Of a stretch of 64,000 bases of DNA, positions 31,243-45,135 are shown piece after piece; position 1 is the first letter of the stretch, and every line of letters begins with the position of its first letter. The position numbers and the translations under genes were made by a program. This DNA is from SAR116 cluster bacterium AG-447-A06 (GTDB lineage Bacteria; Pseudomonadota; Alphaproteobacteria; Puniceispirillales; Puniceispirillaceae): assembly GCA_003212345.1 (NCBI GenBank), contig QCPZ01000007.1:1-64000 (forward strand), written 5' to 3'. The notes beneath the pieces are model-generated. The model saw nothing but the letters and a program-made list of their open reading frames with translations. It was not told the DNA's origin and made no database searches.

Positions 31243-32478
31243 TCAAATTACCTTGGCATTGCGCAAGGCAGAAATCTCTGCTGGCGACATATCAGCCCAT
31301 TCAGCGATGACCTGATCACTATGTTCACCGAGTCGCGGCGGCGTAATGCGGTATTGTGCCGGAGTTAGACTAAGTTTAGCGGCGAAGGCAGTGGTTGAAA
31401 TCTTACTGCCGTCTTTACGCCATTGATCAATTCTGGCACCGCGTGCCTGAACATGCCGGTCCGCAAACACCTCAGAAATATTATTAATTGGGCCACAAGA
31501 AACACCGGCGGCCTCCAATGTTTCAATAAGCTGTTGGCGATCCATCTTTAAAATAATATCAGCAAGGATTGCATCCAGTTGGTCACGGTTTTTGATACGC
31601 GTCTCATTAGTTGCAAAGTCAGCATGATCAGCCAAATCGGGAACAGCCAATGCCGCTGTCAAGCGAATAAATTGTTTGTCATTCCCGCAGGCGACAATCA
31701 CAAACCCATCACGCGCCCGATAAACGGTATAGGGAACAACACTTGGATGGCTGTTACCCATGCGGCCTGGACACACCTCTGCGTTTAACCAATTTGCGGA
31801 TTGATTCGCTAGCATTGAGATTTGACTATCGAGAAGCGCGCAATCAATATGCTGGCCCTTGCCAGTTCGAGCACGATAATGAAGCGCCGCTAGAGCGGCA
31901 TTAGCGGCGAACATGCCGGTAAACAAATCACATACAGCAACTCCAACTTTCATTGGTGCACTGCCCGGGCTGCCATCAGGCTGGCCGGTAATGCTCATCA
32001 GCCCGCCCATGCCCTGTATCAAAAAATCATATCCTGATCTGTGCGAATAGGGCCCTGTTTGACCAAAACCCGTAATTGAACAATAAATGATTCCTGGATT
32101 AATGGCGGCAATTGACCCGTAATCCAGACCATATTTCTTCAACCCGCCCGGTTTGAAATTTTCAATTACTATATCAGCCTTTTGGGCCAGCTTCCGCACG
32201 AGATCAGCGCCACCCTCGGTTGAAAAGTCAATTGTAACGGATCGTTTATTACGATTGCAGGCGGAAAAATAGGCCGCAGAATCACGACTGCCATCGGCCT
32301 TCTGGGAAAAAGGCGGGCCCCATTTACGTGTATCATCACCACCATCCGGATTTTCCACCTTCACCACATCCGCACCAAGATCCGCAAACATCTGTGCTGC
32401 ATAAGGCCCAGCCAAAATCCGACTTAGGTCCAACACTTTTAATCCAGCAAGTGCCATCGGGGTTTCGTGATCTGTCAT
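31243..32478 (-). CDS. Family III (CaiB/BaiF) CoA-transferase
   Basis: 411 residues. LAGLKVLDLSRILAGPYAA with DLGADVVKVENP is the standard N-terminus. D184 in AVCDLFTG matches the catalytic Asp that forms the aspartyl-CoA thioester intermediate. It moves CoA between carboxylic acids; the acids are unknown. It is divergent from an acyl-CoA dehydrogenase gene 170 bases away, so the two may activate and oxidise the same substrate. One of three CaiB/BaiF proteins in the window. Confidence 0.88.
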   Translation of the reverse strand: MTDHETPMALAGLKVLDLSRILAGPYAAQMFADLGADVVKVENPDGGDDTRKWGPPFSQKADGSRDSAAYFSACNRNKRSVTIDFSTEGGADLVRKLAQKADIVIENFKPGGLKKYGLDYGSIAAINPGIIYCSITGFGQTGPYSHRSGYDFLIQGMGGLMSITGQPDGSPGSAPMKVGVAVCDLFTGMFAANAALAALHYRARTGKGQHIDCALLDSQISMLANQSANWLNAEVCPGRMGNSHPSVVPYTVYRARDGFVIVACGNDKQFIRLTAALAVPDLADHADFATNETRIKNRDQLDAILADIILKMDRQQLIETLEAAGVSCGPINNISEVFADRHVQARGARIDQWRKDGSKISTTAFAAKLSLTPAQYRITPPRLGEHSDQVIAEWADMSPAEISALRNAKVI

Positions 32479-32648
32479 TATCTGTCCTGCTATAATAGTT
32501 TCGTTGCCAAAGTTAGATTGTCTGACTCGCCAAAATACGTGATTTTCAATTTACAGCCTATGGGAAAGTTGGCAGGCTTACCATTCGCAACTTTCATAGA
32601 TTTTGCAGTGCCATTCGCCCTGCTTTTACTCACTCAGATGGACAGATC

Positions 32649-33809
32649 ATGGATTTTTCACTCAGCGCTGAACAACAAATGCTTCAGGAGACGGCACGCC
32701 GCTTTGCGCAAACAGAACTGCCCGCTCATGCCACAGATATTGAAAATAACAACGCGCCGCCAAATCTGGTTCTTCGCAAACGATTCGCCGAAATGGGCTT
32801 TATGGGCATCAATTTACCATCTGCCTATGGTGGGGCTGGGCTTGGGCATTTCGAGGCTGTATTGATTTTGGAAGAGCTAGCAAAAATTTCTGTCGCGGTC
32901 GCGTTTCCTGTTTTTGAAGCCAGTTTTGGGCCGGCCCTAGCAATTGCACATTTTGCGCCAAAAGCATTACAACAGCGTATTCTTCCACAAGTCTGTTCAG
33001 GTGAAATGGTAGTTGCCATTTCAATGTCCGAACCAAATGCCGGGACGGCGTTGACCGACCTTAAAACCAGAGGCAAGCTAAATGGTGATAAGATCATACT
33101 AAATGGCAGCAAACGCTGGTGCTCCGGCGGCGGTCATGCTGATGCCTATGTTGTTTATTGCCGCCTGTCTGATGATCCGGGGGCCAAGGGTATTGGCGCA
33201 GTATTTTTAGAAAAAGGTACCCAGGGGTTTACCTTTGGAGCCCCAGAATCACATATGGGCTGGCGCGGCATTGCCAGTGCCGATATGTTTTTTGATAATG
33301 TTGAAGTGCCTGTCGAAAATATTATTGTTCCTGCGGGCGGCTTTAAAAAGCTGATGGAAGCCTTTGATCTAGAGCGCTGCGGCAACACTACGATGAGTCT
33401 TGCCTGCGGTCAGTCCGCCTTTGATTACGCGCTTGACTATGTGCAAGAGCGCGAACAATTCGGCAAACCAATAATTGAATTTCAAGCCGTACAATTGCAG
33501 ATTGCCCAGATGAAAATGAAGTTAGATGCGGCGAGGCTTCTTTTGTATCGGGCAGTCAATAATGCTGAACAGTCCCTGCCATCAATTGCAGATAGCTCAA
33601 TCGCAAAATGCTATGCCAATGAAATTGCGCGTGAGGTTGCCGGTGCTGCAGTACAATTGATGGGCGGTTATGGCTATTCAAAATCCTATCCAATGGAGCA
33701 GAAAATGCGCGATGCCTGGGGGTGGGGCATTGCTGGTGGGTCGATTGACATCCAAAAGGTAAATATTGCCGCTGCTCTTACTGGAAAAAGGTTTAACCAG
33801 AGGGGTTAG
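32649..33809 (+). CDS. Acyl-CoA dehydrogenase
   Basis: 386 residues. FAD-dependent alpha,beta-dehydrogenation of an acyl-CoA. AISMSEPNAGTALTDL and GSKRWCSGGG are the middle-domain flavin contacts, ERCGNTTMSLACGQ and QLMGGYGYSKSYPMEQKMRDA the C-terminal domain. The usual catalytic Glu of the IYEGT motif is absent (the segment reads GIAGGS). E242 in DLERC matches the alternative catalytic Glu position of isovaleryl-CoA dehydrogenase, so activity on a branched or long substrate is plausible. Divergent from a CoA-transferase gene; only three bases from the convergent dipeptidase stop. Confidence 0.9.
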   Translation: MDFSLSAEQQMLQETARRFAQTELPAHATDIENNNAPPNLVLRKRFAEMGFMGINLPSAYGGAGLGHFEAVLILEELAKISVAVAFPVFEASFGPALAIAHFAPKALQQRILPQVCSGEMVVAISMSEPNAGTALTDLKTRGKLNGDKIILNGSKRWCSGGGHADAYVVYCRLSDDPGAKGIGAVFLEKGTQGFTFGAPESHMGWRGIASADMFFDNVEVPVENIIVPAGGFKKLMEAFDLERCGNTTMSLACGQSAFDYALDYVQEREQFGKPIIEFQAVQLQIAQMKMKLDAARLLLYRAVNNAEQSLPSIADSSIAKCYANEIAREVAGAAVQLMGGYGYSKSYPMEQKMRDAWGWGIAGGSIDIQKVNIAAALTGKRFNQRG

Positions 33810-33812
33810 CCG

Positions 33813-34889
33813 TTACCCCTTCCATACTTTGCCAAGAACATTCACCCAATTTGCATGGCATAATTTAGTCATCAGCGCATTGTCATATCCATGGGCGCGC
33901 ATGGCCTCACGCAGGGCTGGCAAACCGGCGGCATTGCCAATGCCATGGGGCACTGTAGTGCCATCAAAGTCTGAACCAAGCCCAACTCTATCTTCCCCTA
34001 GATAGGCAAGCAAATGATCAAGATGGCGAAGCATGACGTCAAAACCAGTGTCAGCCTGCATGCGGCCATCTGGGCGTAAAAAGGCAACCGCAAAATTTAG
34101 CCCCACCATCCCATCACTTTCAGCAATCGCCGCAAGCTGCCGGTCCGTCAGGTTGCGTGCATGTGGGCTAATTGCGTAGGCGTTCGAGTGAGTGGCAACA
34201 AGTGGGGCGGATGATTGTTTGGCAACATCCCAAAAACCGGCTTCATTCAAATGCGATAGATCAATAAGAATGCCATTATCGTCACAATATTGGACCAGTC
34301 TTTTACCATCCTCACTAAGGCCGGGACCAATATCACCATTGCTTGGAAAGCGAAATGGCACACCATGTCCAAATCGGTTTGGCCGGCTCCATAACGGACC
34401 AATTGATCGCAAGCCAGCACGCTGGAACATATTTAGGTTGTAAAAATCACGATCAATCGGCTCAGCACCTTCAATGTGCATAATGGCCGCAATTTTGTCT
34501 TGTTTAAGACAGGATTGTAGCATCGCCGCGTTGGTGCAGATCGTCACGTAGCCAGCTTGTTCCATCCGATGCAGAATTGCCGCCTGTGCGATAGCAATCG
34601 GAAGGGCCTCATCTACAGAGATTTCCGAAGGCAAGGGTAAATCATATTTTGGCAGATTCATCTGCGAATTCTTACTATCCAGATCGATGGGCGATGGTAC
34701 CCAAATAGCAAAAAACCCACCCCCAAAACCACCTTTGCGCATCTTACCCATATCAAGATGGCCCGGCATATCACCCTCAAAAACATCAAGATTAATAGCC
34801 CCACCCGAGCACGAGCCTGATTTAAATAAAAGCGATAGAATGTCGTTATGCCCATCAAAAATAAGTGGGGTTCTTAGTACAGGCTTCAT
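33813..34889 (-). CDS. Membrane dipeptidase (M19, renal dipeptidase family)
   Basis: 358 residues. H14 and D16 in FDGHNDILSL are the first metal ligands. IMHIEGAEPID supplies the bridging Glu, and LVATHSNAYAISPHARNL and GLGSDFDGTT are the remaining metal-site blocks of this binuclear-zinc amidohydrolase. Members hydrolyse dipeptides, and some act on D-amino acid or beta-lactam-like amides. No signal peptide is evident. It is the third gene of a minus-strand run with YtoQ and a beta-hydroxyacid dehydrogenase (gaps 20 and 54 bases). Confidence 0.9.
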   Translation of the reverse strand: MKPVLRTPLIFDGHNDILSLLFKSGSCSGGAINLDVFEGDMPGHLDMGKMRKGGFGGGFFAIWVPSPIDLDSKNSQMNLPKYDLPLPSEISVDEALPIAIAQAAILHRMEQAGYVTICTNAAMLQSCLKQDKIAAIMHIEGAEPIDRDFYNLNMFQRAGLRSIGPLWSRPNRFGHGVPFRFPSNGDIGPGLSEDGKRLVQYCDDNGILIDLSHLNEAGFWDVAKQSSAPLVATHSNAYAISPHARNLTDRQLAAIAESDGMVGLNFAVAFLRPDGRMQADTGFDVMLRHLDHLLAYLGEDRVGLGSDFDGTTVPHGIGNAAGLPALREAMRAHGYDNALMTKLCHANWVNVLGKVWKG

Positions 34890-34909
34890 CCTTAAAGCTC
34901 TCTCGGTCT

Positions 34910-35359
34910 CTAGAGTTTGCCAGTAATCACATAATTTAATATTGCAGCGACCTGGTCAGCAGTCTCAACCGTCGCAAGAGCTGCGCTATCAACTTCTTTC
35001 AGGGCATGCTGATGATCGCTGCCATGCATGATTACCAATGCTTTGCCAAGGGCCGCCGCATAACCCGCATCAAAAGCAGCATTCCATTGCTTGTATTTTT
35101 CTCCAAAACGTACCACAACAACATCAGCGCGGGAGAGCGCGGTACGGGTGCGAATGGCATTAAGTTTGGCTCCTTTATGATCATGCCAGAATTTATCCGG
35201 TTCATCCCCCATGATTGCAACCCCGCAATCATCGGATGCGCCGTGGTCGGTTACCGGACCGAGAAAGGTAATATCAAGTTGCTGTTTTTTGCAAGCATCG
35301 GCCACTTCTTCTCGCCAATCTGTGTGAATTTCACCTGATAGATAGACTGTTAATTTCAT
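34910..35359 (-). CDS. ytoQ: YtoQ family protein
   Basis: 149 residues. VYLSGEIHTDWREEV at the N-terminus, FLGPVTDHGASDD, GDEPDKFWHDHKGAKLNAIR and VVVRFGEKYKQWNAAFDAG all fit the YtoQ family, which is related to nucleoside 2-deoxyribosyltransferase-like folds. Catalytic function is not established. In this window it lies between a dipeptidase and a dehydrogenase gene on one strand. Confidence 0.85.
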   Translation of the reverse strand: MKLTVYLSGEIHTDWREEVADACKKQQLDITFLGPVTDHGASDDCGVAIMGDEPDKFWHDHKGAKLNAIRTRTALSRADVVVVRFGEKYKQWNAAFDAGYAAALGKALVIMHGSDHQHALKEVDSAALATVETADQVAAILNYVITGKL

Positions 35360-35413
35360 CTCTTACCTCTTTCTTCGATTATTTTTATCGGCAACAGCGC
35401 CCCCAGCAAGCCC

Positions 35414-36352
35414 CTATTTAGGACGAATGCGCGCACCGGTTTTAGTCTCATATTCAAGAGCAACAAGGCTCATATCAGCAGTATCACCATGGGTGTGCAT
35501 AGCATCTTGAAGCTCAGCAAATGCCACCTCGCCAAGGGGCATTGGTTGGGCAAGGCCAGCCGCCATGTCAAGCGCCAATCCGGCGTCTTTTTCCATCAAT
35601 GCCATTGAAAAACCCTGATGCATTTTCCCTGATAGAATATTATCCGGTAAAGTAATCTCGGTTGCATAATTGCGGCCGGAACTTTTTTGCAAAATATCAA
35701 CAGCCCGTTCCGCATCCACACCGGCATTGATCAGCAAAGACACCACTTCGAAACTGGCCATACGACAAATAAGGTTCAGCAAATTGTTACCTGCCTTTAA
35801 CGCGTGGCCAGCGCCAACTGGTCCAGCGTGGAAGATATTGTTGCTAATAACCTTTAAAGTGGGCAGAATTTGTTGATATAGCTTATCCTCACCACCAACC
35901 ATGATGGCAATGGTTCCTTCGCGGGCACCACGCGGACCACCGCTAACCGGTGCATCAACAAATATCACACCGGCCTTGGCAAGGCGAGCGGCTTGGTCCC
36001 GGCTTATTGCCGGGTCGCCAGATGTCATATCAACAAAAATCTGTCCTGGTTTTAAATCGCGAGAAATGCCTGCGTCGCCGAAAAGCACTGTTTCCGTCAC
36101 TGCAGATGTAGGCAGACAGGCAAAAATAATGTCGCAGGATTCGCAGAGCTCTAATGCACTTTTCGCAGCAATTGCACCTCTTTCAATAAACGGGGCCAAT
36201 TTAATGCTGTCGGGATCGAAGACCATTAATGGCAGTCCGTCAATTTTTGGCTTTGTTAAGCGCATCGCAATGGCGCTACCCATGTTCCCCAGGCCAATAA
36301 AGCCAATTCTCCCCTGTCTTTCCCATATCGAGAGAGTTTTTTTGTCAATCAC
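35414..36352 (-). CDS. Beta-hydroxyacid dehydrogenase family (HIBADH-like)
   Basis: About 312 residues from a GTG at 36352, preferred because GGAG lies 9 bases upstream; the open frame begins at a TTG at 36406. The Rossmann motif IGFIGLGNMGSAIAMRL with D in FDPD suggests NAD. DAPVSGGPRGAREGTIAIM is the substrate loop, and the catalytic Lys is in AGHALKAGNNLLN. It resembles 3-hydroxyisobutyrate dehydrogenases. First gene of the run with ytoQ and the M19 dipeptidase; substrate unknown. Confidence 0.84.
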   Translation of the reverse strand: MIDKKTLSIWERQGRIGFIGLGNMGSAIAMRLTKPKIDGLPLMVFDPDSIKLAPFIERGAIAAKSALELCESCDIIFACLPTSAVTETVLFGDAGISRDLKPGQIFVDMTSGDPAISRDQAARLAKAGVIFVDAPVSGGPRGAREGTIAIMVGGEDKLYQQILPTLKVISNNIFHAGPVGAGHALKAGNNLLNLICRMASFEVVSLLINAGVDAERAVDILQKSSGRNYATEITLPDNILSGKMHQGFSMALMEKDAGLALDMAAGLAQPMPLGEVAFAELQDAMHTHGDTADMSLVALEYETKTGARIRPK

Positions 36353-36613
36353 GTCATTACGCTCCCCAAAATAAAAGATAGTCGGTCTTTTTTGCAAAAG
36401 AGACAAGATAACAAAAGAATATCCAGCATCATGCGAAGCGATTTATAGTTATTCGCTGATCCAAAACCACAAAACCGGTCGCATCTAATTTGCCAATTTT
36501 CCAAAAAAACTGGTAATTATTTGCAACTTCAAATGGTAAACCGCTACCATATTACATAACTTATATTCAGCCATTTGCTCTTAAAAATAAACATCACTGA
36601 TCGAATTTCTTAC

Positions 36614-37897
36614 ATGAAAAAAAATACGCGGCAGTCAAAATCAAAATTTTATGCCCCACTCGCTGTTCTTGTTTTTTGTCTCTCGATGATTGCTGTCAGC
36701 CGCGGCATGGGCGAAACCTATGGTGTTTTTCTCTTACCCATCAGCGAAACCTTTCAATGGAACCGAGCAAGTGTGACATCAGTATTTTCGATTTACATGG
36801 TATCATTTGGCCTTGGTTCATTCTTGTCAGGCATTGTGTTTGACCGGCTTGGCCCAAAATTCAATTACATCATTGGCCTCTTGATGCTGGCAAGTTGTTA
36901 CGGCTTTGCGGGTCGATTGGAGTCTTTGCCAGCCTTTTGCCTAGTTGTTGGGGTGTGCGGGGGCGTTGGAAGCGCATTAGTCGGCATTGTGCCAACTCAA
37001 AGCTTAATTGCGCGTTGGTTCAAGCGGCGGCGAGCAGCGGCAATGTCAATCGCTTATTCCGGGCAGGGCCTCGGTGTCATGCTTTTGGCTCCGGCCGCTC
37101 AGATAGCGATTGATGCATATGGTTGGAAGGGGGCTTACGAGCTTGCGAGCTTGGGTTTTATCGGTTGTTTTACAATAATTTTACTAATGCCGTGGCGGCG
37201 CATTGCAAACGGGGCCATCACGCCTGCCGCCAGCCCATTGGCAAAAGATCGAGCCCTAAAGGACAAGGTTTTTGATCAAAACATCAAACCGGCCATCAAA
37301 GAATTATCACTGCGTGAGGCTATAAGGCGTCCGGAATTTTGGGGATTTTTTACTATTTTTGGCGCAACTGCGATCGCAGTTTTTGGTATTTCACTTCAAA
37401 CTGTTGCATATCTTATCGATCAAGGCTTCAAGCCGGTTTTTGCGGCATTTTCATTTGGCCTGATTGGGATGCTGACTATTGCGGGCATTGCAATCACTGG
37501 CATTCTCGCAGATCGGTTTCCAAGGCATATTATTGCCACTTGCAGTTACGGCCTTACAGTGCTCGGTGTCATCGCTTTAGCTTGCTTGCAGGTCCACCAA
37601 AGCGAGATTCTTTTGGCAATTTTCATTGTTTGTTTTGGGCTTTCGGCTGGAGCTCGCGGCCCCATAATCACCACTCAAATGGCTGAGCTTTTTGCAGGAC
37701 GCGGGTTAGCCTCTATTTTTGGAGCTACTGGTGTTGGGAATGGATGCGGTGCCGCAATTGGTGCTTTTTTGGCCGGGCTTAGCTACGACATTACGGGAGG
37801 TTACTCTTTTGGGTTTTTTGTCAGCTTGATATTCCTTTGCATCGGAATGTCAATGTTTTGGGTGATTCCAGGCATCAAGAACAACAGAATTAAATAA
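36614..37897 (+). CDS. MFS transporter (oxalate/formate or MCT-like)
   Basis: About 427 residues from ATG 36614; an upstream in-frame start exists at 36575 and neither has a good ribosome site. Twelve membrane helices. RGMGETYGVFLLPISETFQWNR at the start and IVFDRLGPK between helices 2 and 3 are typical of MCT-type carriers. It heads a same-strand run with two CoA-transferases, a DsbA-like isomerase and a GST, so it probably imports the carboxylate that this unit consumes. Substrate not readable from sequence. Confidence 0.83.
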   Translation: MKKNTRQSKSKFYAPLAVLVFCLSMIAVSRGMGETYGVFLLPISETFQWNRASVTSVFSIYMVSFGLGSFLSGIVFDRLGPKFNYIIGLLMLASCYGFAGRLESLPAFCLVVGVCGGVGSALVGIVPTQSLIARWFKRRRAAAMSIAYSGQGLGVMLLAPAAQIAIDAYGWKGAYELASLGFIGCFTIILLMPWRRIANGAITPAASPLAKDRALKDKVFDQNIKPAIKELSLREAIRRPEFWGFFTIFGATAIAVFGISLQTVAYLIDQGFKPVFAAFSFGLIGMLTIAGIAITGILADRFPRHIIATCSYGLTVLGVIALACLQVHQSEILLAIFIVCFGLSAGARGPIITTQMAELFAGRGLASIFGATGVGNGCGAAIGAFLAGLSYDITGGYSFGFFVSLIFLCIGMSMFWVIPGIKNNRIK

Positions 37898-37959
37898 TTT
37901 TTGTAATTTTCATAAATATCTGATTGGGTTTTCAAAGAGACAGTAAAATAGGAAACAAA

Positions 37960-39177
37960 ATGGCTGATGACCCCAATAATGAAAAGGCACTTCACGGAAT
38001 AAAGGTGCTTGATTTAACCAGATTTCTATCAGGCCCACAAACGACCCTTTTTTTGGCTGCACTGGGTGCAGAAGTTGTTAAAATTGATGATCCCAAACTG
38101 GGTGATCCTGTCGCAAATTCACCACCATTTTTTGGCAAGAATGGTGTATCAATGTCACAAAATTCAGCGACCGACGTGGGCATCGCGTACTTAAAGCGAG
38201 CCAGATCAAAAAAATCCATTGAATTAGACCTAAAGAATGCCCAAGACCTCGATCTATTCAAAAAATTAGTCAAAAAGGCAGATATTATTGTGGAGAATTT
38301 TAGATTTGGAGTTACGCAACGGCTCGGTATTGATTACGAGCATTTGAAATCAATTAATCCAACTATAATTTATTGCTCAATCACTGGTTACGGAACTACA
38401 GGCCCCGCTGCAAACAAAAAAGCTTTTGACGCAACTGTCCAAGCAGCAGCCGGATTAATGAGCGTGACTGGCGACCCCGAGGGCCCTTCAATGAAAATTG
38501 GCTCATCAATGGGCGACACGATTGCAGGCACATTCGCTTTTTCTGCTATTTTAGCGAGTTTGCTGCGGCGCGCAAAGACTGGCGTTGGCGAATTCATAGA
38601 TGTTTCAATGACAGATTGCTTGATAGCTTTGCTTTATGATGAGCCTTGGGATTGTTATGACACATTGGGGCTAAGCAAAAGACAAGGGAATCGTATAATG
38701 CGATTTTCACCCTTCAATTGCTATCGAGCAAAGGACGGTGAGGTCGTCCTGGGTGCTGCTTCAGAAAAAGAATGGGATGATATCCTTGAAATGATTGATC
38801 AGGAGGACATCAAATATCTCAGCAAGCTCTCGAGTGTCAGCGACCGTATTCAAAACAACCAAGAAGTTGATGCTTTGATGAGTGCTTGGACATCTAAGCA
38901 TAGTGTCAGAGAAATAGTGGATTTATGTGATGCCTATGGAGTTTCGTGCAGTCCAGTTAATGACGCTTCAAAAATATTGGATTGGGAACAGGTTGTGTCA
39001 CGAAACATTCTTACTCCGGTAAAACACTCTCATTTTTCAAGCAAGAGCGGGCCGTTGGCAGCAAACTTTCCAGTCAAATTTTCAAGTTCTGACGTATCGT
39101 TAAAGAAACCAGCACCGAAGCCAAACCAACACTTTGAGGAAATTATGAAAACGTGGCTCGGTGGTGAAATCAACTAA
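37960..39177 (+). CDS. Family III (CaiB/BaiF) CoA-transferase, first of the GST operon
   Basis: 405 residues from ATG 37960 (AGGA about 6 bases upstream). IKVLDLTRFLSGPQTTLFLAALGAEVVKID is the N-terminal block and D186 in SSMGDTIAG the catalytic Asp. It has a Lys-rich composition and an AT-rich coding sequence unlike the CoA-transferase at 31.2 kb. It lies 62 bases after the MFS gene and 37 before the DsbA-like gene. It would load CoA on the imported acid or move it off an intermediate. Confidence 0.86.
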   Translation: MADDPNNEKALHGIKVLDLTRFLSGPQTTLFLAALGAEVVKIDDPKLGDPVANSPPFFGKNGVSMSQNSATDVGIAYLKRARSKKSIELDLKNAQDLDLFKKLVKKADIIVENFRFGVTQRLGIDYEHLKSINPTIIYCSITGYGTTGPAANKKAFDATVQAAAGLMSVTGDPEGPSMKIGSSMGDTIAGTFAFSAILASLLRRAKTGVGEFIDVSMTDCLIALLYDEPWDCYDTLGLSKRQGNRIMRFSPFNCYRAKDGEVVLGAASEKEWDDILEMIDQEDIKYLSKLSSVSDRIQNNQEVDALMSAWTSKHSVREIVDLCDAYGVSCSPVNDASKILDWEQVVSRNILTPVKHSHFSSKSGPLAANFPVKFSSSDVSLKKPAPKPNQHFEEIMKTWLGGEIN

Positions 39178-39214
39178 GGTTTAATTAAACTTAAAAAAAT
39201 GAAAGGGGAGCATC

Positions 39215-39826
39215 ATGACTCAAAAACCGATAGTCAAGATGTATTCAGACTTCAAGAGCCCATATGCATATATCGCTTTTAAACCTGGAATGGAACTCAC
39301 CAACAAATACAATGTTGACATTAAATGGCGACCATTTCAGTTACGCCTCAAAGGCAAAGGGCAAAGAAGCATTTATTCTGAATGGAAAGTAAAATATTCT
39401 TACATGGATGCAAGGCGTCATGCGAACCGGCTTTACGATAAACAAATGCTTAGAGGCCCGCTCAAAGTTTTTGACACCACCCCCGCTCTGATTGGGAGTC
39501 TATTTGCCGAAAAGAAGAACCTGCTGCATAGCTATTGTACGAACGTTTTCGAGTCATTTTTCAAACGTGAGTTTGCCGCGGATGACTGTAATGAGGTGGC
39601 AGAATTATTGGAGACGCTTGGTTTGTCAAAGGATGAGTATCTTGACTTTTTGTCAAACGAAGGCAAGACACTTTTTGAACGTTGTCTTGAAGAAGCATCC
39701 GAGGATCAGATTTTTGGAGTTCCGATATTTATGTTCAATGGAGAACAGTTCTGGGGAGCCGATAGGATTTGGTTGCTTGAAGAGAGATTAACTGAGGCGG
39801 GCCTTACCAAAAGTAGTGAAAAATGA
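39215..39826 (+). CDS. DsbA-family thioredoxin-fold protein, 2-hydroxychromene-2-carboxylate isomerase-like
   Basis: 203 residues with a strong ribosome site (AGGGGAG). MYSDFKSPYAYIAFKPG contains S15-P16 in place of the CxxC of true DsbA, as in HCCA isomerases and kappa-class GSTs, where the Ser activates glutathione. IFGVPIFMFNGEQFWGADRI is the conserved cis-Pro and C-terminal block. No signal peptide, so cytosolic. The stop overlaps the GST start by four bases (ATGA). Probably a glutathione-dependent isomerase; the substrate is unknown. Confidence 0.82.
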   Translation: MTQKPIVKMYSDFKSPYAYIAFKPGMELTNKYNVDIKWRPFQLRLKGKGQRSIYSEWKVKYSYMDARRHANRLYDKQMLRGPLKVFDTTPALIGSLFAEKKNLLHSYCTNVFESFFKREFAADDCNEVAELLETLGLSKDEYLDFLSNEGKTLFERCLEEASEDQIFGVPIFMFNGEQFWGADRIWLLEERLTEAGLTKSSEK

Positions 39827-40524
39827 GTCGTACTAAAACAACTCTGTTTTTTTGGCCAACGCCAAACTGTTACAAAGTCAGCATCCTATTAGAAGAACTC
39901 GAGCTGGAGTATGAAGTCCACCCTATTCACATCGGAAAAGGTGAACAGTTTGATCATGAGTTCCTAGAAATTAGTCCACACGGCAAAGTTCCTGCTCTTA
40001 AGGAAGATACTGCTAATGGGAAAACACAAACAATATTCGAGTCTGGAGCTATTATGCTGTATTTAGCAGAAAAACATAACCAGTTACTTGGTGGCAAAAA
40101 AACAAACAAGCTGTCAGTAATTCAATGGCTAATGTTTCAGATGGCGAATATTGGCCCTATGCTTGGTCAGGCACATCATTTTAGGCATTATGCTAATGAG
40201 AATATTCAGTATGCAATCAATCGATATACGAATGAAGCTTCAAAAATATACGCTGTGCTCGATGCGCAGCTTGGAAAATCACAGTATATTGCGGGGGAGG
40301 ATTACAGTATCGCTGATATTGCAATTTACCCTTGGTTAAGACCACAAAAAATGCAAGGTCAAAACATATCCCATCACCCCAATATTCAGCGATGGTATAA
40401 TACAATGCGGGCACGACCCGCAATAAAGCGCGGACTTTTGGTGATGCATGACAAAGTTAGCAACATTAGAAAGAAACCAGTCGGTGATGCATGGAAAACT
40501 TTATTTGACCGTCAGTCAAACTAA
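39823..40524 (+). CDS. Glutathione S-transferase (YfcG/Ure2-like)
   Basis: 233 residues. The N-terminal thioredoxin domain has FFWPTPNCYKVSILLEEL (N15, C16 at the catalytic loop), SPHGKVPAL (cis-Pro) and ESGAIMLYLAEK (GSH gamma-Glu site). A helical C-terminal domain includes YSIADIAIYPWL, the conserved capping motif. The layout resembles nu-class GSTs such as YfcG, which act as GSH-disulfide oxidoreductases or GSH-adduct enzymes. Translationally coupled to the DsbA-like isomerase upstream. Confidence 0.87.
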   Translation: MSRTKTTLFFWPTPNCYKVSILLEELELEYEVHPIHIGKGEQFDHEFLEISPHGKVPALKEDTANGKTQTIFESGAIMLYLAEKHNQLLGGKKTNKLSVIQWLMFQMANIGPMLGQAHHFRHYANENIQYAINRYTNEASKIYAVLDAQLGKSQYIAGEDYSIADIAIYPWLRPQKMQGQNISHHPNIQRWYNTMRARPAIKRGLLVMHDKVSNIRKKPVGDAWKTLFDRQSN

Positions 40525-40552
40525 CCAACCCTAAAAAAGAAATGACCATGTC

Positions 40553-41806
40553 ATGACAAAAATGCTTTCCAAATACCGTGTACTCGATATCACTCAGTTT
40601 GTTGCTGGGCCAACGTCATCCCGAATAATGGCTGAGCTCGGCGCTGATGTAATCAAGGTTGAACTGTTTCCGACTGGTGATCATGCGCGACGATCCGGCC
40701 TTCAAGCCAAGAACAACAACCTTAAACAATGCACTCAAAGCACTTATTTTGCACAGCACAATCACTCAAAGCGTAGCATTGCATTAAACTTAAAATCAGA
40801 AAAAGGGCAATCAATTATAAAACAACTAGTAGAGCAATCCGATGTGTTAATCGAAAATTTTGCACCAGGCGTTATTGGCCGCATGGGTCTGTCATATGAC
40901 AAGGTAAAAGCAGTAAATCCAGAAATAATCATGTGTTCAATCTCTTTTGCTGGCCAACGGGGACCACTCTCAAAGGAGCCTGGATTCGATTACATGGCTG
41001 CCGCTTACGCCGGTATTACTGAGATGGTTGGGGAGAGTGATCGCCCTCCAAGCCAAGTGAGCATGGCAGTTGGAGACAGTGCCACTGGAATATCCGCCGC
41101 AATGGCTGTAATGGCCGCCTTGTTACACCGTGAACATACAGGCAAAGGTCAATACATAGACTGCTCACTCTTAGATACTTACCTTCAGATGCATGAGGAT
41201 TATATTCCGCGAGTTGGCATCCGAGGTGAAGCCGCTTTGCCAAAGCGCTCGGGCTCGCAACATCCTAATGGCGGCCCAACAGGCATTTTTGACTGTGGCG
41301 ACGGCACTTTCATACAAATGATGGTAATGCCATACCAATGGCCTAGACTTACAGAAGCAATTCAAATGCCCGAATTAATGAATGACCCAAGATTTGACTC
41401 GCCACGGCAACGCCGAGAAAACAAGTTTGATTTGCAAAACATAATTGAAAAGTGGATGAAAAGCATTGGTTGCCGTGACAAGATTCTTGAAATCCTGAGG
41501 AAGACACGGGTGCCAGTTGCACCAGTATTGACGTTACAAGAGGCAATTTCACATCCCCACGCGACTAAGCGAGGAGCAATACGTCATCTAGATGACCCAT
41601 TTATTGGTATATTTCCAATACCGGGCCAGCCACCTCTTTTTTCCGATTGGTCCTACAACAAGAGACTCAAGGCACCCCTATTGGGTGAGCATAATGAAGA
41701 GGTGCTCACAACTATTTGCGGAATGGAAAAAGAAGAAATATCAGAACTTATCAAGGATGGTGTAATCGTCTCAGACCCAACACTCCGTAACTCTTCGCAT
41801 GAATAA
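40553..41806 (+). CDS. Family III (CaiB/BaiF) CoA-transferase, second of the GST operon
   Basis: 417 residues. YRVLDITQFVAGPTSSRIMAELGADVIKVE is the N-terminal block and D175 in AVGDSATG the catalytic Asp. It lies 28 bases after the GST gene and closes the run. It differs from the first CoA-transferase of the unit, so the two probably handle different acids or form a heteromer. The coding DNA is AT-rich. It converges with the ThDP enzyme gene across 27 bases. Confidence 0.87.
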   Translation: MTKMLSKYRVLDITQFVAGPTSSRIMAELGADVIKVELFPTGDHARRSGLQAKNNNLKQCTQSTYFAQHNHSKRSIALNLKSEKGQSIIKQLVEQSDVLIENFAPGVIGRMGLSYDKVKAVNPEIIMCSISFAGQRGPLSKEPGFDYMAAAYAGITEMVGESDRPPSQVSMAVGDSATGISAAMAVMAALLHREHTGKGQYIDCSLLDTYLQMHEDYIPRVGIRGEAALPKRSGSQHPNGGPTGIFDCGDGTFIQMMVMPYQWPRLTEAIQMPELMNDPRFDSPRQRRENKFDLQNIIEKWMKSIGCRDKILEILRKTRVPVAPVLTLQEAISHPHATKRGAIRHLDDPFIGIFPIPGQPPLFSDWSYNKRLKAPLLGEHNEEVLTTICGMEKEEISELIKDGVIVSDPTLRNSSHE

Positions 41807-41833: not shown

Positions 41834-43498
41834 TTATTTTTTTGCTTCTGTCAGACGACGCATTACTGGCGAAGCAATTTGATCGGAGATATGGAAATCC
41901 CACAATGCCGCTTTTTCACCAGAGACAAAGTCCTCAAAGGCTGCATCTAACTCTTCAAGATTGGTAAAGCTAACGCCGTCAAGACCAAAGCCGCGTGCCA
42001 CACTGGCGAGATCAGTTTGGCCAAAAGCCGCACCGGTTTCATCATGCCCATCAACGCGTAGTTTATGAATTTCTGATCCATAGGCTGCGTCATTCATCAC
42101 GATCATCAACAATTTGATTCCATGCCGTTTTATAGTTTCAAGCTCTTGTGCATGCATCAAAAAACCACCATCACCATCAATCAATACAACCTGTGTTTCA
42201 GGGCGGGCAGCTGCAACACCAATGGCATAGGATAACCCGTTTCCAATTGCGCCAAATTCTCGAATGGTCAAAAACGCATCAGCCGAACGGCCAGTCATAT
42301 GAGCCGAGTAATAAGAACAATGACCAGAAGAATTCACCATAAACCAGTCTTTGGGCAATTTTTGATCCAGCGCCTTGATCATCTGGCGCGGGTCAATCAC
42401 ATCAGGCGCTACCTGAAATGGCAGTGCATCCGGATATTCGGCAGCTTGCTGCTGTGCTGCCAATTCATCGCGCCATTCATGGCTACCTGAAGAGCAGCCC
42501 TTGATATCACCAAGAGCGTTCAAAATTGCATCAACACCAATTTTGGCATCCGCGCAAAGATGATGATGTGCTGCCACACGGCCTTGCTGATAAATGATAG
42601 GGTGCGTGTCAATATGCAGAATCTTAGCATTAGGATATAACCGGCCCGCGTCGGCAGAATGTGATGCGAGGCTCGTGCCGACAGCAATCACCAGGTCAGA
42701 CTCCAGGCAAGCCTCGCGCGCCGTATCAGAGGCAAAACCACCAACTACATTCAAGGAATGGATTGAGCGATGAAAAAGACCACGGGCTGGTAAACTCGTT
42801 AAAAGCACCGCGCCAATTTTATCGGCAAGGCGTATACAGGACGGGCCCGCATCGGCCAGCACGGCGCCTCGCCCTCCAATCAACACTGGCCTTTTTGCCT
42901 GCGCTACCACCGCCGTTACAGTATCCACAACTCCCGGATCAGGAAATACCTTGCCGACAGATGGAACGAAATCAGACGCCGCTTCAATGGTAAAGTTAAG
43001 ATTACCCCAATCACTTTCCTGTAGATCAAAAGGCATCCCAATCACAACTGGAGTCCCACTCATTTGGGTGCGGGAAAACGCATCCTGAATCTGACGGGTG
43101 ACCCGAGGCTTATGTAAAATCCTTACGTACTCGGCGCCACAAGCCGTTACAAACGGTGCTTGGTCAATTTCTTGATTATACCATGAAGCCCGCAATGGTG
43201 ATTCCCCGACAAATAGCACGAGCGGGATCCGTGCTCGTACGGCTGCGGAAAGGCCCGTCATTACTTGTGTTAGCCCAGGCCCGCATGTGACCGTGGCGAG
43301 GCCGGGCTGGCCTGTTACCCGTGCATAGGCCATAGCCATCGAGACGGCACAATGCTCATGCCGCGCATAGGTAAAAGACACGCCAAGATGGGCAAGCGCG
43401 CCAGCAAAGTGCATATTGCCATCGCCAAGCAGAGCAAAACAATGACCAACTCCCTGCGCCTTAATGGCTTTTGCCACAACATCATATGTTTTCATCAT
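41834..43498 (-). CDS. Thiamine-diphosphate-dependent enzyme, acetolactate synthase-like
   Basis: 554 residues with the three-domain ThDP decarboxylase fold. E48 in YARHEHCAVSMA is the cofactor-activating Glu. A central domain runs about 190-330, and the ThDP/Mg motif VVLIDGDGGFLMHAQELETI to VMND lies near 430-460. The sequence is not a close match to IlvB, oxalyl-CoA decarboxylase or sulfoacetaldehyde acetyltransferase as I know them. Likely a 2-oxoacid lyase or ligase of unknown substrate. A class III aminotransferase gene is divergent 242 bases away and may supply a 2-oxoacid. Confidence 0.82.
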   Translation of the reverse strand: MMKTYDVVAKAIKAQGVGHCFALLGDGNMHFAGALAHLGVSFTYARHEHCAVSMAMAYARVTGQPGLATVTCGPGLTQVMTGLSAAVRARIPLVLFVGESPLRASWYNQEIDQAPFVTACGAEYVRILHKPRVTRQIQDAFSRTQMSGTPVVIGMPFDLQESDWGNLNFTIEAASDFVPSVGKVFPDPGVVDTVTAVVAQAKRPVLIGGRGAVLADAGPSCIRLADKIGAVLLTSLPARGLFHRSIHSLNVVGGFASDTAREACLESDLVIAVGTSLASHSADAGRLYPNAKILHIDTHPIIYQQGRVAAHHHLCADAKIGVDAILNALGDIKGCSSGSHEWRDELAAQQQAAEYPDALPFQVAPDVIDPRQMIKALDQKLPKDWFMVNSSGHCSYYSAHMTGRSADAFLTIREFGAIGNGLSYAIGVAAARPETQVVLIDGDGGFLMHAQELETIKRHGIKLLMIVMNDAAYGSEIHKLRVDGHDETGAAFGQTDLASVARGFGLDGVSFTNLEELDAAFEDFVSGEKAALWDFHISDQIASPVMRRLTEAKK

Positions 43499-43740: not shown

Positions 43741-45135
43741 ATGGGCACCAGAACCATGACAGATAAAGTAATAAAACTTGATAAGAAGACATCCAAGCTA
43801 GAGAGCCATTGTTTCCCCCGTCACACCAAGGTAGTTCCGCCAGTGGCTGTCGAAGGCAGTGGTTGTTATCTGATAGATGCTGACGGTAAACAATATTTTG
43901 ACGGATCAAGTGGGGCTGCCGTATCTTGCCTTGGTCATGGAGATGCCGATGTCGCGGCGGCTATGAAAGAGCAGATTGACAAGCTGTCATTCGCTCATAC
44001 GGGCTTTTTCACATCAGAACCTGCCGAAGCTTTGGCCGACCTTCTAATTGCCAATGCACCGTTGGGCATTGATCGAGTTTATTTTGTATCAGGCGGGTCG
44101 GAGGCAGTTGAGGCAGCATTAAAGCTGGCGCGGCAATATTTTGTTGAAATTGGCGAGAGTAAAAGAACCCACATTATTGGCCGCAAACAAAGCTATCATG
44201 GCAATACCCTTGGGGCGCTGGCCGCTGGCGGCAATGCATGGCGACGCGAACAATTCGCCCCTTTGCTGTTTAGTGCCAGCCATATTGACACTTGTTATGC
44301 CTATCGCGGCAAGGCTGATAATGAGAGCTATTTCGACTATGGCCAGCGCATGGCCAATGAATTGGAGGGAGAAGTTCTACGGCTAGGGCCAGACAAAGTT
44401 ATGGCCTTTCTGGCAGAACCAGTAATAGGGGCAACGCTTGGTGCGGTCGCTGCCGAAGATGGCTACTTCACTCGCATCCGTGAAATCTGTGATCAGTATG
44501 GTGTGCTTTTAATACTAGATGAGGTGATGTGCGGCATGGGTCGAACTGGGTCTTTGTTTGCTTGTAATCACGATCCAGTACGACCCGATATTATTACTAT
44601 TGCCAAGGGGCTAGGCGCCGGTTATCAACCGATTGGGGCGACGCTCTGTAGCAAAAATATTTTTGATGCTATCGAAGCGGGGAGCGGCTTTTTTCAGCAT
44701 GGCCACACCTATCTTGCACATCCTGTTGCCTGCGCAGCATCGTTTGCGGTGCTGACCAAAATCATTAACCAGAATTTGCCTGCCCGTTCCAGAAAAATGG
44801 GCGATATGCTAAAAGATGCTTTGCGGCAAAAATTTGGCCAACACCCATTTATTGGTGACATCCGAGGTCGCGGTCTTTTCATCGGCATCGAATTTGTGGC
44901 GGACCGCGAGCAGAAAACGCCATTCGATCCCTCCAATGGAATTAATCGCAGGGTCAAGGCAGCCACTTTTGATGCTGGTTTGTTGTGCTACCCAATGGGC
45001 GGGACAATCGATGGCAAGAAAGGTGATCATCTATTGCTAGCACCGCCATTGATCATGGAAGCTGGGCATATCGAGGAAATCACCAATAAGCTGGAAATTG
45101 GTTTCCAAAAAGTGTTCGACTCTACAGAGCCCTAA
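43741..45135 (+). CDS. Class III (omega/diamine type) PLP aminotransferase
   Basis: 464 residues (ATG 43756 is an alternative start). FVSGGSEAVEAALKLARQYF and GRKQSYHGNTLGALAAGG bind PLP phosphate. LLILDEVMCGMGRTG carries the ring-nitrogen Asp and ITIAKGLGAGYQPIGA the Schiff-base Lys K289. It transfers amino groups between an amine or omega-amino acid and a 2-oxoacid; the partner is unknown. It overlaps the convergent hydrolase gene by 14 bases and is divergent from the ThDP enzyme. Confidence 0.88.
   Translation: MGTRTMTDKVIKLDKKTSKLESHCFPRHTKVVPPVAVEGSGCYLIDADGKQYFDGSSGAAVSCLGHGDADVAAAMKEQIDKLSFAHTGFFTSEPAEALADLLIANAPLGIDRVYFVSGGSEAVEAALKLARQYFVEIGESKRTHIIGRKQSYHGNTLGALAAGGNAWRREQFAPLLFSASHIDTCYAYRGKADNESYFDYGQRMANELEGEVLRLGPDKVMAFLAEPVIGATLGAVAAEDGYFTRIREICDQYGVLLILDEVMCGMGRTGSLFACNHDPVRPDIITIAKGLGAGYQPIGATLCSKNIFDAIEAGSGFFQHGHTYLAHPVACAASFAVLTKIINQNLPARSRKMGDMLKDALRQKFGQHPFIGDIRGRGLFIGIEFVADREQKTPFDPSNGINRRVKAATFDAGLLCYPMGGTIDGKKGDHLLLAPPLIMEAGHIEEITNKLEIGFQKVFDSTEP

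Follow-up and report, generated by a model that had tools for sequence, protein, structure and literature searches.

A four-gene cassette of CoA-transferases and glutathione-type proteins in SAR116 bacteria, a candidate module for handling an organic acid

We analyzed a 64,000-nucleotide stretch of DNA from SAR116 cluster bacterium AG-447-A06 (contig QCPZ01000007.1, positions 1 to 64,000; hereafter the window), in which a first-pass annotation had drawn a five-gene operon between positions 36614 and 41806 that would import and catabolize a carboxylate. The open reading frames (ORFs) it described are readily recovered: five genes, all on the plus strand, with successive gaps of 62, 37, -4, and 28 bases. 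Its family calls likewise agree with Pfam for all five proteins, namely a major facilitator superfamily (MFS) carrier (MFS_1, 3.6e-45), two CaiB-type coenzyme A (CoA) transferases (CoA_transf_3, 6.8e-103 for CaiB1 and 4.2e-106 for CaiB2), a DsbA-fold protein (DSBA, 6.5e-24), and a glutathione S-transferase (GST; GST_N/GST_C). None of the five reaches a curated NCBIfam cut-off, and the DsbA-fold protein has no NCBIfam match at all. The features of the locus, as revised here, are as follows, with L numbers denoting loci in other genomes.

35414 to 36406, minus strand: hydroxyisobutyrate-dehydrogenase-like gene, a backbone gene on the left flank (Pfam/NCBIfam; cassette-free relatives)
36614 to 37897, plus strand: MFS carrier of monocarboxylate type, a neighbor outside the cassette that is kept at the empty site in L144, L145, and L146
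37898 to 37959, plus strand: predicted deletion scar, consisting of the MFS stop and the CaiB1-side half of an ancestral LysR-CaiB1 divergent promoter (intergenic alignment)
37960 to 39177, plus strand: CaiB1, family III CoA-transferase with catalytic Asp186 (PF02515, alignment); possible alternative start TTG at 37924
39215 to 39826, plus strand: DsbA-fold protein resembling 2-hydroxychromene-2-carboxylate (HCCA) isomerase and kappa GST, with Ser15 replacing the first Cys (Pfam, PDB, model)
39823 to 40524, plus strand: YfcG-type (nu) GST with Thr13-Pro14-Asn15-Cys16 (Pfam, NCBIfam, PDB)
40553 to 41806, plus strand: CaiB2, family III CoA-transferase with catalytic Asp175 (PF02515, alignment)
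41834 to 43498, minus strand: thiamine diphosphate (ThDP, or TPP)-dependent enzyme, acetolactate-synthase-like, a backbone gene at the right edge of the cassette

CaiB1-DsbA-GST-CaiB2 is a real, conserved four-gene unit of known enzyme families. Eleven distinct loci are known, of which seven (the window, L032 to L036, and L106) belong to one genus (genus g1), two (L037 and L105) to two other genera of the SAR116 family, and one each to a Magnetovibrio metagenome-assembled genome (MAG; L038) and a Hyphomicrobiaceae MAG (L039). All nine SAR116-family genomes found to carry the DsbA gene have the four genes in the same order, one copy (L033) being broken, and the cassette occupies three sites: the genus-g1 site, L037, and L105. 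At L038 and L039 the DsbA gene is followed directly by CaiB2, with no adjoining match to CaiB1 or the GST, so that all eleven loci link CaiB2 to the DsbA gene, with CaiB2 truncated in L033 and the L039 contig ending inside it. Elsewhere in these two genomes, CaiB1-like genes reach at most 269.8 and 248.3 bits, neither a clear CaiB1 counterpart, and the top-scoring GSTs (283.9 and 275.5 bits) are 44% identical to the window GST and carry a TPNG motif. In L033 (8763 to 11212), CaiB1 is split across two frames, the GST match ends at residue 127, and the CaiB2 match begins at residue 339, as fused truncations, unlike the intact copies at other SAR116 loci; the genome name, AG-325-I21, is one that we take to be of the single-cell type, meaning that these breaks may partly be assembly faults.

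Outside these loci the cassette is rare. A close match to the DsbA gene (at least 69% identity) occurs in 8 of 61 relatives, with weak matches only in 19 others; at E <= 1e-55 the gene is found in 9 of the 61 family genomes, and the identical 9 are recovered among 136 genomes of the order. In the samples of 385 class and 398 phylum genomes, which include few members of the SAR116 family, the window's genome is the only one with a DsbA match at that threshold, and it is also the only one of the 385 class genomes with a CaiB2 match at E <= 1e-130. A scan of 84,980 species genomes with peptide patterns returned eight loci, six of them SAR116-family loci already counted plus L038 and L039; the patterns were matched exactly, so diverged copies escape. 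Presence is patchy even within the window's genus (7 of 16 genomes), although genomes are frequently incomplete (the window's own is 80%), and absences therefore carry little weight.

The comparison redraws the unit proposed by the first-pass annotation, which is smaller than first drawn on one side, where the MFS gene falls out, and larger on the other, where a LysR gene had been overlooked; the association and order of the other four genes held up. Nearest to lactate and monocarboxylate carriers, the MFS protein fits the organic-acid type assigned to it (NCBIfam SfMCT, 125.6 bits vs a cut-off of 320; PDB matches to MCT2 and an L-lactate transporter). Of the nine genomes of the genus that have no cassette, we inspected four. 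In three of them (L144, a one-contig genome, L145, and L146) the MFS and TPP genes face each other 12 to 41 bases apart with no cassette in between, and in the fourth (L147) the MFS gene is kept with the block of hydroxyisobutyrate-dehydrogenase-like, YtoQ, M19, acyl-CoA dehydrogenase, and CaiB3 genes, with both the cassette and the TPP gene missing. Because three cassette-free relatives hold the MFS gene at the equivalent place facing the TPP gene, we assign it to the chromosomal backbone and rule it out as a cassette gene. No MFS match was found at the cassette loci L037, L105, L038, or L039, which together with its backbone position leaves a dedicated importer unsupported. The original reading of a five-gene operon, in which the MFS protein brings in the substrate of the cassette, draws on the arrangement in the window, L032, and L033, where the MFS gene lies directly before CaiB1 on the same strand (62 bases away in the window) and where read-through from MFS into CaiB1 is likely following the LysR deletion described below. 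At L034, L035, L036, and L106, however, a LysR gene on the opposite strand separates the two, and with the MFS gene also present in genomes that have no cassette, this reading is largely refuted and we consider it improbable. The TPP gene and the hydroxyisobutyrate-dehydrogenase-like gene were rejected as partners too, both being backbone genes kept in genomes without the cassette.

The LysR gene probably belongs to the cassette ancestrally, read divergently, and appears to have been deleted in the window's lineage. It is present at 6 of 11 loci, with PF00126 and PF03466 matches in all six proteins: between MFS and CaiB1 and divergent from CaiB1 at L034, L035, L036, and L106, divergent from CaiB1 at L037 (48% identity to the L035 LysR), and divergent from the DsbA gene at L038 (45%). 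No LysR gene adjoining the cassette was found in the window, L032, L033, L105, or L039, the rest of the window's genome not having been searched. An intergenic alignment of the seven genus-g1 loci and L037 indicates that the half of the promoter next to CaiB1 survives in the window, whereas the half next to LysR has disappeared along with the gene, such that the MFS stop now abuts the promoter remnant. Within the divergent region of each of the six LysR-bearing loci, the sequence TTATYAATAA followed by TTG occurs once, and it occurs in none of eight other sequences tested; the short form, TTATYAATAA alone, has in addition one occurrence elsewhere in the window and two in L105. As the motif was derived from the loci in which it was counted, the count describes the motif and is no test of it, and its expected frequency is a base-composition estimate. 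The strongest point for a putative operator is its presence in the distant L038, where the motif takes the form of the palindrome GTTATTAATAAC. It is absent from the MFS-CaiB1 gap of the window.

Base composition and distribution suggest that the cassette moves as a block and was acquired horizontally, though repeated loss could explain part of the pattern. In all seven loci of the genus, the G+C content of the cassette (0.417 to 0.43) is below that of the flanks (0.45 to 0.52), and in L037 it is 0.445 between flanks of 0.513 and 0.469; low G+C, the occupation of three sites across three genera, and occurrence in under half of the genus together point to movement as a block. The cassette genes are under purifying selection, with constraint similar to that on their neighbors: the ratios of nonsynonymous to synonymous substitution rates between the window and L032 are 0.143 for CaiB1, 0.190 for DsbA, 0.204 for the GST, 0.133 for CaiB2, and 0.197 for the MFS gene, compared with 0.301 and 0.184 for two backbone genes. 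These values bear on whether the four genes share a pathway at all or are simply co-carried by chance on a mobile block, as might be argued from the core-only loci, where CaiB1 and the GST can be missing. Given an identical order at three sites in three genera, genes that overlap or nearly touch, and purifying selection on all four, we find chance co-carriage very hard to credit.

Both CaiB proteins have the hallmarks of family III CoA-transferases. Besides their PF02515 matches, Asp186 of CaiB1 and Asp175 of CaiB2 align on Asp169 of E. coli Frc, in keeping with the catalytic residues first proposed, and the Asp is kept in 5 of 5 CaiB1 and 6 of 6 CaiB2 rows; the importance of Asp169 in Frc and the role of Gln17 are described in PMC10057887. 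The Gln17 column, by comparison, holds Leu in CaiB1 and Val in CaiB2. In a small, hand-picked tree that included six long rows, the CaiB1 rows and the CaiB2 rows separate into a clade each (100/99); the two window proteins are 26% identical, and neither falls into a clade of fixed, unrelated function. The row nearest to CaiB1 is a CaiB from a Burkholderia plasmid (99/97; 36% identity). Scores for named functions stay below their cut-offs: CaiB2 reaches 269.7 of 442 and 262.9 of 504.2 bits against the formyl-CoA transferase models, and CaiB1 and CaiB2 reach 255.5 and 232.5 bits against succinyl-CoA:mesaconate CoA-transferase (NF041294, cut-off 700). The Burkholderia placement and the NCBIfam ranking make dicarboxylate chemistry a first candidate for CaiB1, and no more. 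An oxalate/formate route as in E. coli frc was rejected, Gln17 being replaced and the scores lying under the cut-offs. The E. coli frc-oxc-yfdV-yfdE locus resembles that of the window in placing two family III CoA-transferases near a carrier; it differs in that CaiB1 and CaiB2 are only 28% and 31% identical to Frc and that the cassette has no oxalyl-CoA decarboxylase. A plasmid cluster of Burkholderia pseudomultivorans (LysR, CoA ester lyase, MaoC, acyl-CoA dehydrogenase, two CaiB, MFS) shares the pairing of two CaiB genes with LysR, but has enzymes of later steps and no glutathione proteins annotated in the stretch examined. A plasmid search with CaiB2 gave 35 records, all below 60% identity (33.5 to 36.1% among the matches listed), and no HCCA-like gene is annotated in four regions around CaiB2-like plasmid genes; two regions hit with DsbA and one hit with CaiB1 lack annotation.

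The DsbA-fold protein probably represents a subfamily of HCCA-isomerase/kappa-GST-like proteins with a loop of its own. The Ser-Pro noted earlier in place of CxxC is there, as Ser15-Pro16-Tyr17-Ala18, and a DsbA-like fold with an active-site Ser for Cys places the protein among the HCCA isomerases and kappa GSTs. Only two PDB sequence matches occur at E <= 0.001, one to an HCCA isomerase and one to a "possible" HCCA isomerase. The AlphaFold model (mean predicted local distance difference test score [pLDDT] 80.7; residues 46-49 and 51-59 under 50) has HCCA isomerases (3fz5, 2imd) as its best structural matches, followed by kappa GST (3rpp, 1r4w) and FrnE, at identities of 20 to 26% to HCCA isomerases (26% to 2imd) and 16 to 19% to kappa GSTs, low values that, like the loop, set it apart from both. 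Ser15 aligns with Ser11 of 2imd and is kept in 20 of 20 distant class relatives, making it a mark of the wider family and not of the cassette. The loop at residues 36-65, by contrast, is invariant at 29 of 30 positions in eight rows. When seven cassette proteins were compared with the 20 distant relatives (33 to 39% identity), 34 positions were common to both groups and 35 were invariant in the cassette proteins and rare in the others, 14 of the latter falling within residues 36-57. All seven cassette proteins have Arg at position 44, where 15 of 20 relatives have Asp or Glu; position 46 is Lys in 7 of 7 as opposed to Gly in 19 and Asp in 1 of 20; and position 48 is Lys in 7 of 7, whereas the relatives have Val, Ala, Pro, or Ile and never Lys (0 of 20). 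Net charge over residues 35-75 is +7 to +9 in the cassette proteins vs 0 to +5 in the relatives, and such a charged loop would suit an anionic ligand, e.g. a CoA ester or a polycarboxylate.

The wider DsbA/HCCA-like family, found at E <= 1e-30 in 31 of 384 other class genomes, has no steady neighbor: no neighbor family is common to more than 5 of 20 loci surveyed among these genomes, in a survey that called ORFs by length only and is poor in GC-rich DNA. At L076, L078, and L083, the DsbA-like gene has an overlapping or next ORF of one shared family, perhaps fumarylacetoacetate-hydrolase-like as judged by eye. A plasmid search with the DsbA-fold protein gave 98 records, all below 60% identity (25.6 to 31.6% among the matches listed).

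As the first-pass annotation proposed, the GST is nu-like. It is nearest to YfcG-type GSTs by NCBIfam and PDB (best match 4l8e, with YfcG structures 3gx0 and 5hfk among the first nine), which we take to be the nu class, and its Thr13-Pro14-Asn15 corresponds to what is presumably the active-site motif of that class (YfcG/YghU type). It is not a YfcG equivalog by NCBIfam PRK13972, a disulfide-bond oxidoreductase model (195.2 bits vs a cut-off of 332). In a small, hand-picked tree the cassette GSTs group together, with TPNC in 7 of 7 cassette rows and TPNG in all 11 others (of four GST loci from other genomes, L142 yielded no row). Cys16 would, if the protein is read as glutaredoxin-like, presumably fall at the second Cys position of CxxC. 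Of the 16 genomes of the genus, 15, among them the window's own, encode a glutathione synthetase that scores above its cut-off, as compared with matches in 8 and above-cut-off scores in 3 of 14 control genomes, indicating that glutathione is probably available in the genus.

Beside the cassette GSTs in this tree lie full-length GSTs (44 to 47% identity) from plasmid clusters of Sphingopyxis macrogoltabida EY-1, Xanthobacter dioxanivorans YN2, Ancylobacter, Aminobacter, and Pseudorhizobium, which we take to be of polyethylene glycol (PEG)/ether type. These clusters, like the cassette, combine such a GST with CoA activation, raising the idea that the cassette serves a PEG- or ether-carboxylate-type branch in which the GST acts on the CoA ester of an ether (or thioether) carboxylate. 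The five plasmid GSTs adjoin genes for a flavin adenine dinucleotide (FAD) oxidoreductase, a GMC oxidoreductase, an aldehyde dehydrogenase, and an adenylate-forming enzyme, with glutathione reductase in four of the five clusters. Two papers are in line with this chemistry, one ascribing the conjugation of PEG-carboxylate with glutathione to acyl-CoA synthetase and GST (PMC6987047, attributing this to Somyoonsap 2008) and the other listing GST among PEG enzymes (PMC12696187). The plasmid clusters nevertheless have an adenylate-forming enzyme near the GST instead of a CaiB (the Xanthobacter and Ancylobacter records have a CaiB gene roughly 12 to 14 kb from the GST), carry no annotated HCCA-like gene in the stretches examined, and show Gly at the Cys16 position in the four of the five GSTs that were read, and their other genes are absent from the cassette. 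With the modest identity, a fork support of 83/79, and a GST from another setting scoring equally well (H64, 212 bits), a PEG-type role is highly unlikely. As a separate observation, conjugative plasmids of Ancylobacter and X. dioxanivorans (L158:2326-20788, L101/L151) share GMC and aldehyde dehydrogenases, glutathione reductase, an adenylate-forming enzyme, GST, glycolate oxidase subunits, and CaiB.

It had been stated that no pathway combines the activities of these proteins, which proves too strong: the mix of families is uncommon but has precedents, even if our literature search found no description of the four-gene CaiB1-DsbA-GST-CaiB2 unit itself. In isoprene degradation, the predicted role of IsoG is to convert a glutathione adduct to its CoA ester, from which IsoJ would remove the glutathione (PMC10057887); the structure of the isoG operon has been described as well (PMC4676930). 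The isoG/isoI/isoJ genes of Rhodococcus AD45 and Variovorax WS11, as presented there, resemble the cassette in joining a family III CoA-transferase and GSTs in one operon. Compared by description, the cassette differs in having no IsoH-like dehydrogenase, AldH, or monooxygenase and in carrying an extra HCCA-isomerase-like protein and a second CaiB. Neither an isoprene monooxygenase nor IsoH was found by Pfam among 13 window proteins (the five and eight neighbors), the rest of the genome not having been searched.

A second precedent (PMC11705938) is a polycyclic aromatic hydrocarbon cluster of the marine Sagittula sp. MA-2, in which NahD (an HCCA isomerase), a GST, a 408-residue acyl-CoA transferase, NagL, and a tripartite ATP-independent periplasmic (TRAP) transporter lie within 15 locus tags among aromatic-degradation genes. 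This cluster, together with the fold match of the DsbA model to HCCA isomerase, could be taken to mean that the cassette is a side branch of a naphthalene-type route, with the DsbA-fold protein a true HCCA isomerase and the GST and CoA-transferase acting further down. Yet the protein shares 26% identity with 2imd, as against 41.7% between the Sagittula NahD and the P. putida enzyme (PMC11705938), its loop is seen in none of the 20 distant relatives, and no ring dioxygenase or NahE-like aldolase occurs among the 13 window proteins scanned. The Sagittula cluster, compared by description, has a dioxygenase, NahE, NahF, and maleylpyruvate/fumarylpyruvate genes, of which the cassette has none. The CoA-transferase named in a naphthalene review is a two-subunit beta-ketoadipate CoA-transferase (PMC8006333). 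We give an aromatic branch very little credence.

Taken together, these comparisons incline us, by a little, to regard the cassette as a catabolic module that activates an organic acid with CoA and handles it with glutathione, gained or lost as a block in SAR116 and ancestrally controlled from a divergent LysR promoter. Gene content, order, boundaries, selection, family folds, and conserved catalytic residues are established here; all reaction steps, the donor, and the step order are inferred. CaiB2, the core CoA-transferase, would transfer CoA from a donor such as succinyl-CoA to the acid, and the HCCA-isomerase/kappa-GST-like protein would act with glutathione on the resulting acyl-CoA or on the acid, the likeliest mode being a reversible addition of the thiol, which would serve either to isomerize a double bond or to carry a glutathione adduct. 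The GST would then strip glutathione from the adduct or exchange it. CaiB1, which among named proteins is closest to dicarboxylate CoA-transferases, would pass CoA to or from a second acid, and the product might flow into general beta-oxidation. A bolder and rather doubtful extension is that the DsbA loop binds a CoA thioester and the protein uses glutathione to isomerize or de-adduct the acyl-CoA made by CaiB2, in which case LysR-DsbA-CaiB2 would be a minimal undescribed module, extended in SAR116 by the Cys16 GST and the second CoA-transferase.

Several points weigh against this catabolic reading. CaiB1 and the GST are linked to known functions by weak scores (and, for the GST, by the open fork already given), and with no clear CaiB1 counterpart and only TPNG GSTs in the L038 and L039 genomes, both proteins seem dispensable for the core. 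The broken L033 cassette and the missing regulator of the window suggest that the cassette may be on its way out in the window's lineage, and there is no clear G+C contrast in L105 (0.416 vs 0.394 and 0.469) or L038 (0.656 vs 0.661 for the locus). The wider DsbA family is also basic around the loop (7 to 11 Lys/Arg vs 11), which reduces the loop argument to three positions and the net charge, and the cassette loop is itself poorly modeled (pLDDT under 50). Finally, the cassette contains no hydratase, dehydrogenase, ligase, or thiolase gene for a downstream step and so has no tie to any route.

This last gap, along with the presence of two glutathione-type proteins and the patchy distribution within the genus, would also be expected if the cassette served not growth but the clearance of electrophilic acyl-CoAs or unsaturated acids (acrylate-like, methacrylate-like), its CoA-transferases swapping CoA with toxic acids and its glutathione proteins trapping or releasing them. 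LysR control is compatible with either role. Detoxification would hardly need two CoA-transferases, however, and the core pair of DsbA and CaiB2 occurs without the GST, so we consider it an unlikely function and continue to favor the catabolic module.

Some features of the surroundings are also of note. On the left, the window carries a backbone block from 31243 to 36406 consisting of CaiB3 (31243-32478, minus strand), an acyl-CoA dehydrogenase (32649-33809, plus strand; Pfam), an M19 dipeptidase, YtoQ, and the hydroxyisobutyrate-dehydrogenase-like gene. In the genomes of the genus that were inspected, this block is retained whether or not the cassette is present, and CaiB3 is 49% identical to CaiB proteins of a Xanthobacter and a Halomonas plasmid. 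On the right, beyond the TPP gene, relatives have CoxG, an amidohydrolase, and a three-subunit molybdenum hydroxylase (L035:14345-19663), where the window instead has an aminotransferase (43741-45135). The L039 contig, with DsbA-CaiB2 at 145-2726, carries phage-type genes (tail collar domain, PBECR1 nuclease) roughly 7 to 10 kb upstream.

Surface oceans commonly harbor SAR116 bacteria, many of whose substrates have yet to be identified. The cassette offers a bounded module, present or absent in close kin, that in relatives comes with a LysR sensor and a recognizable operator-like site. The compound that induces the LysR protein would therefore be a direct lead to the substrate. The physiological substrate of kappa GST is still debated, and if it is true that the DsbA-fold protein acts on CoA esters, this would provide a natural role for the kappa GST fold.

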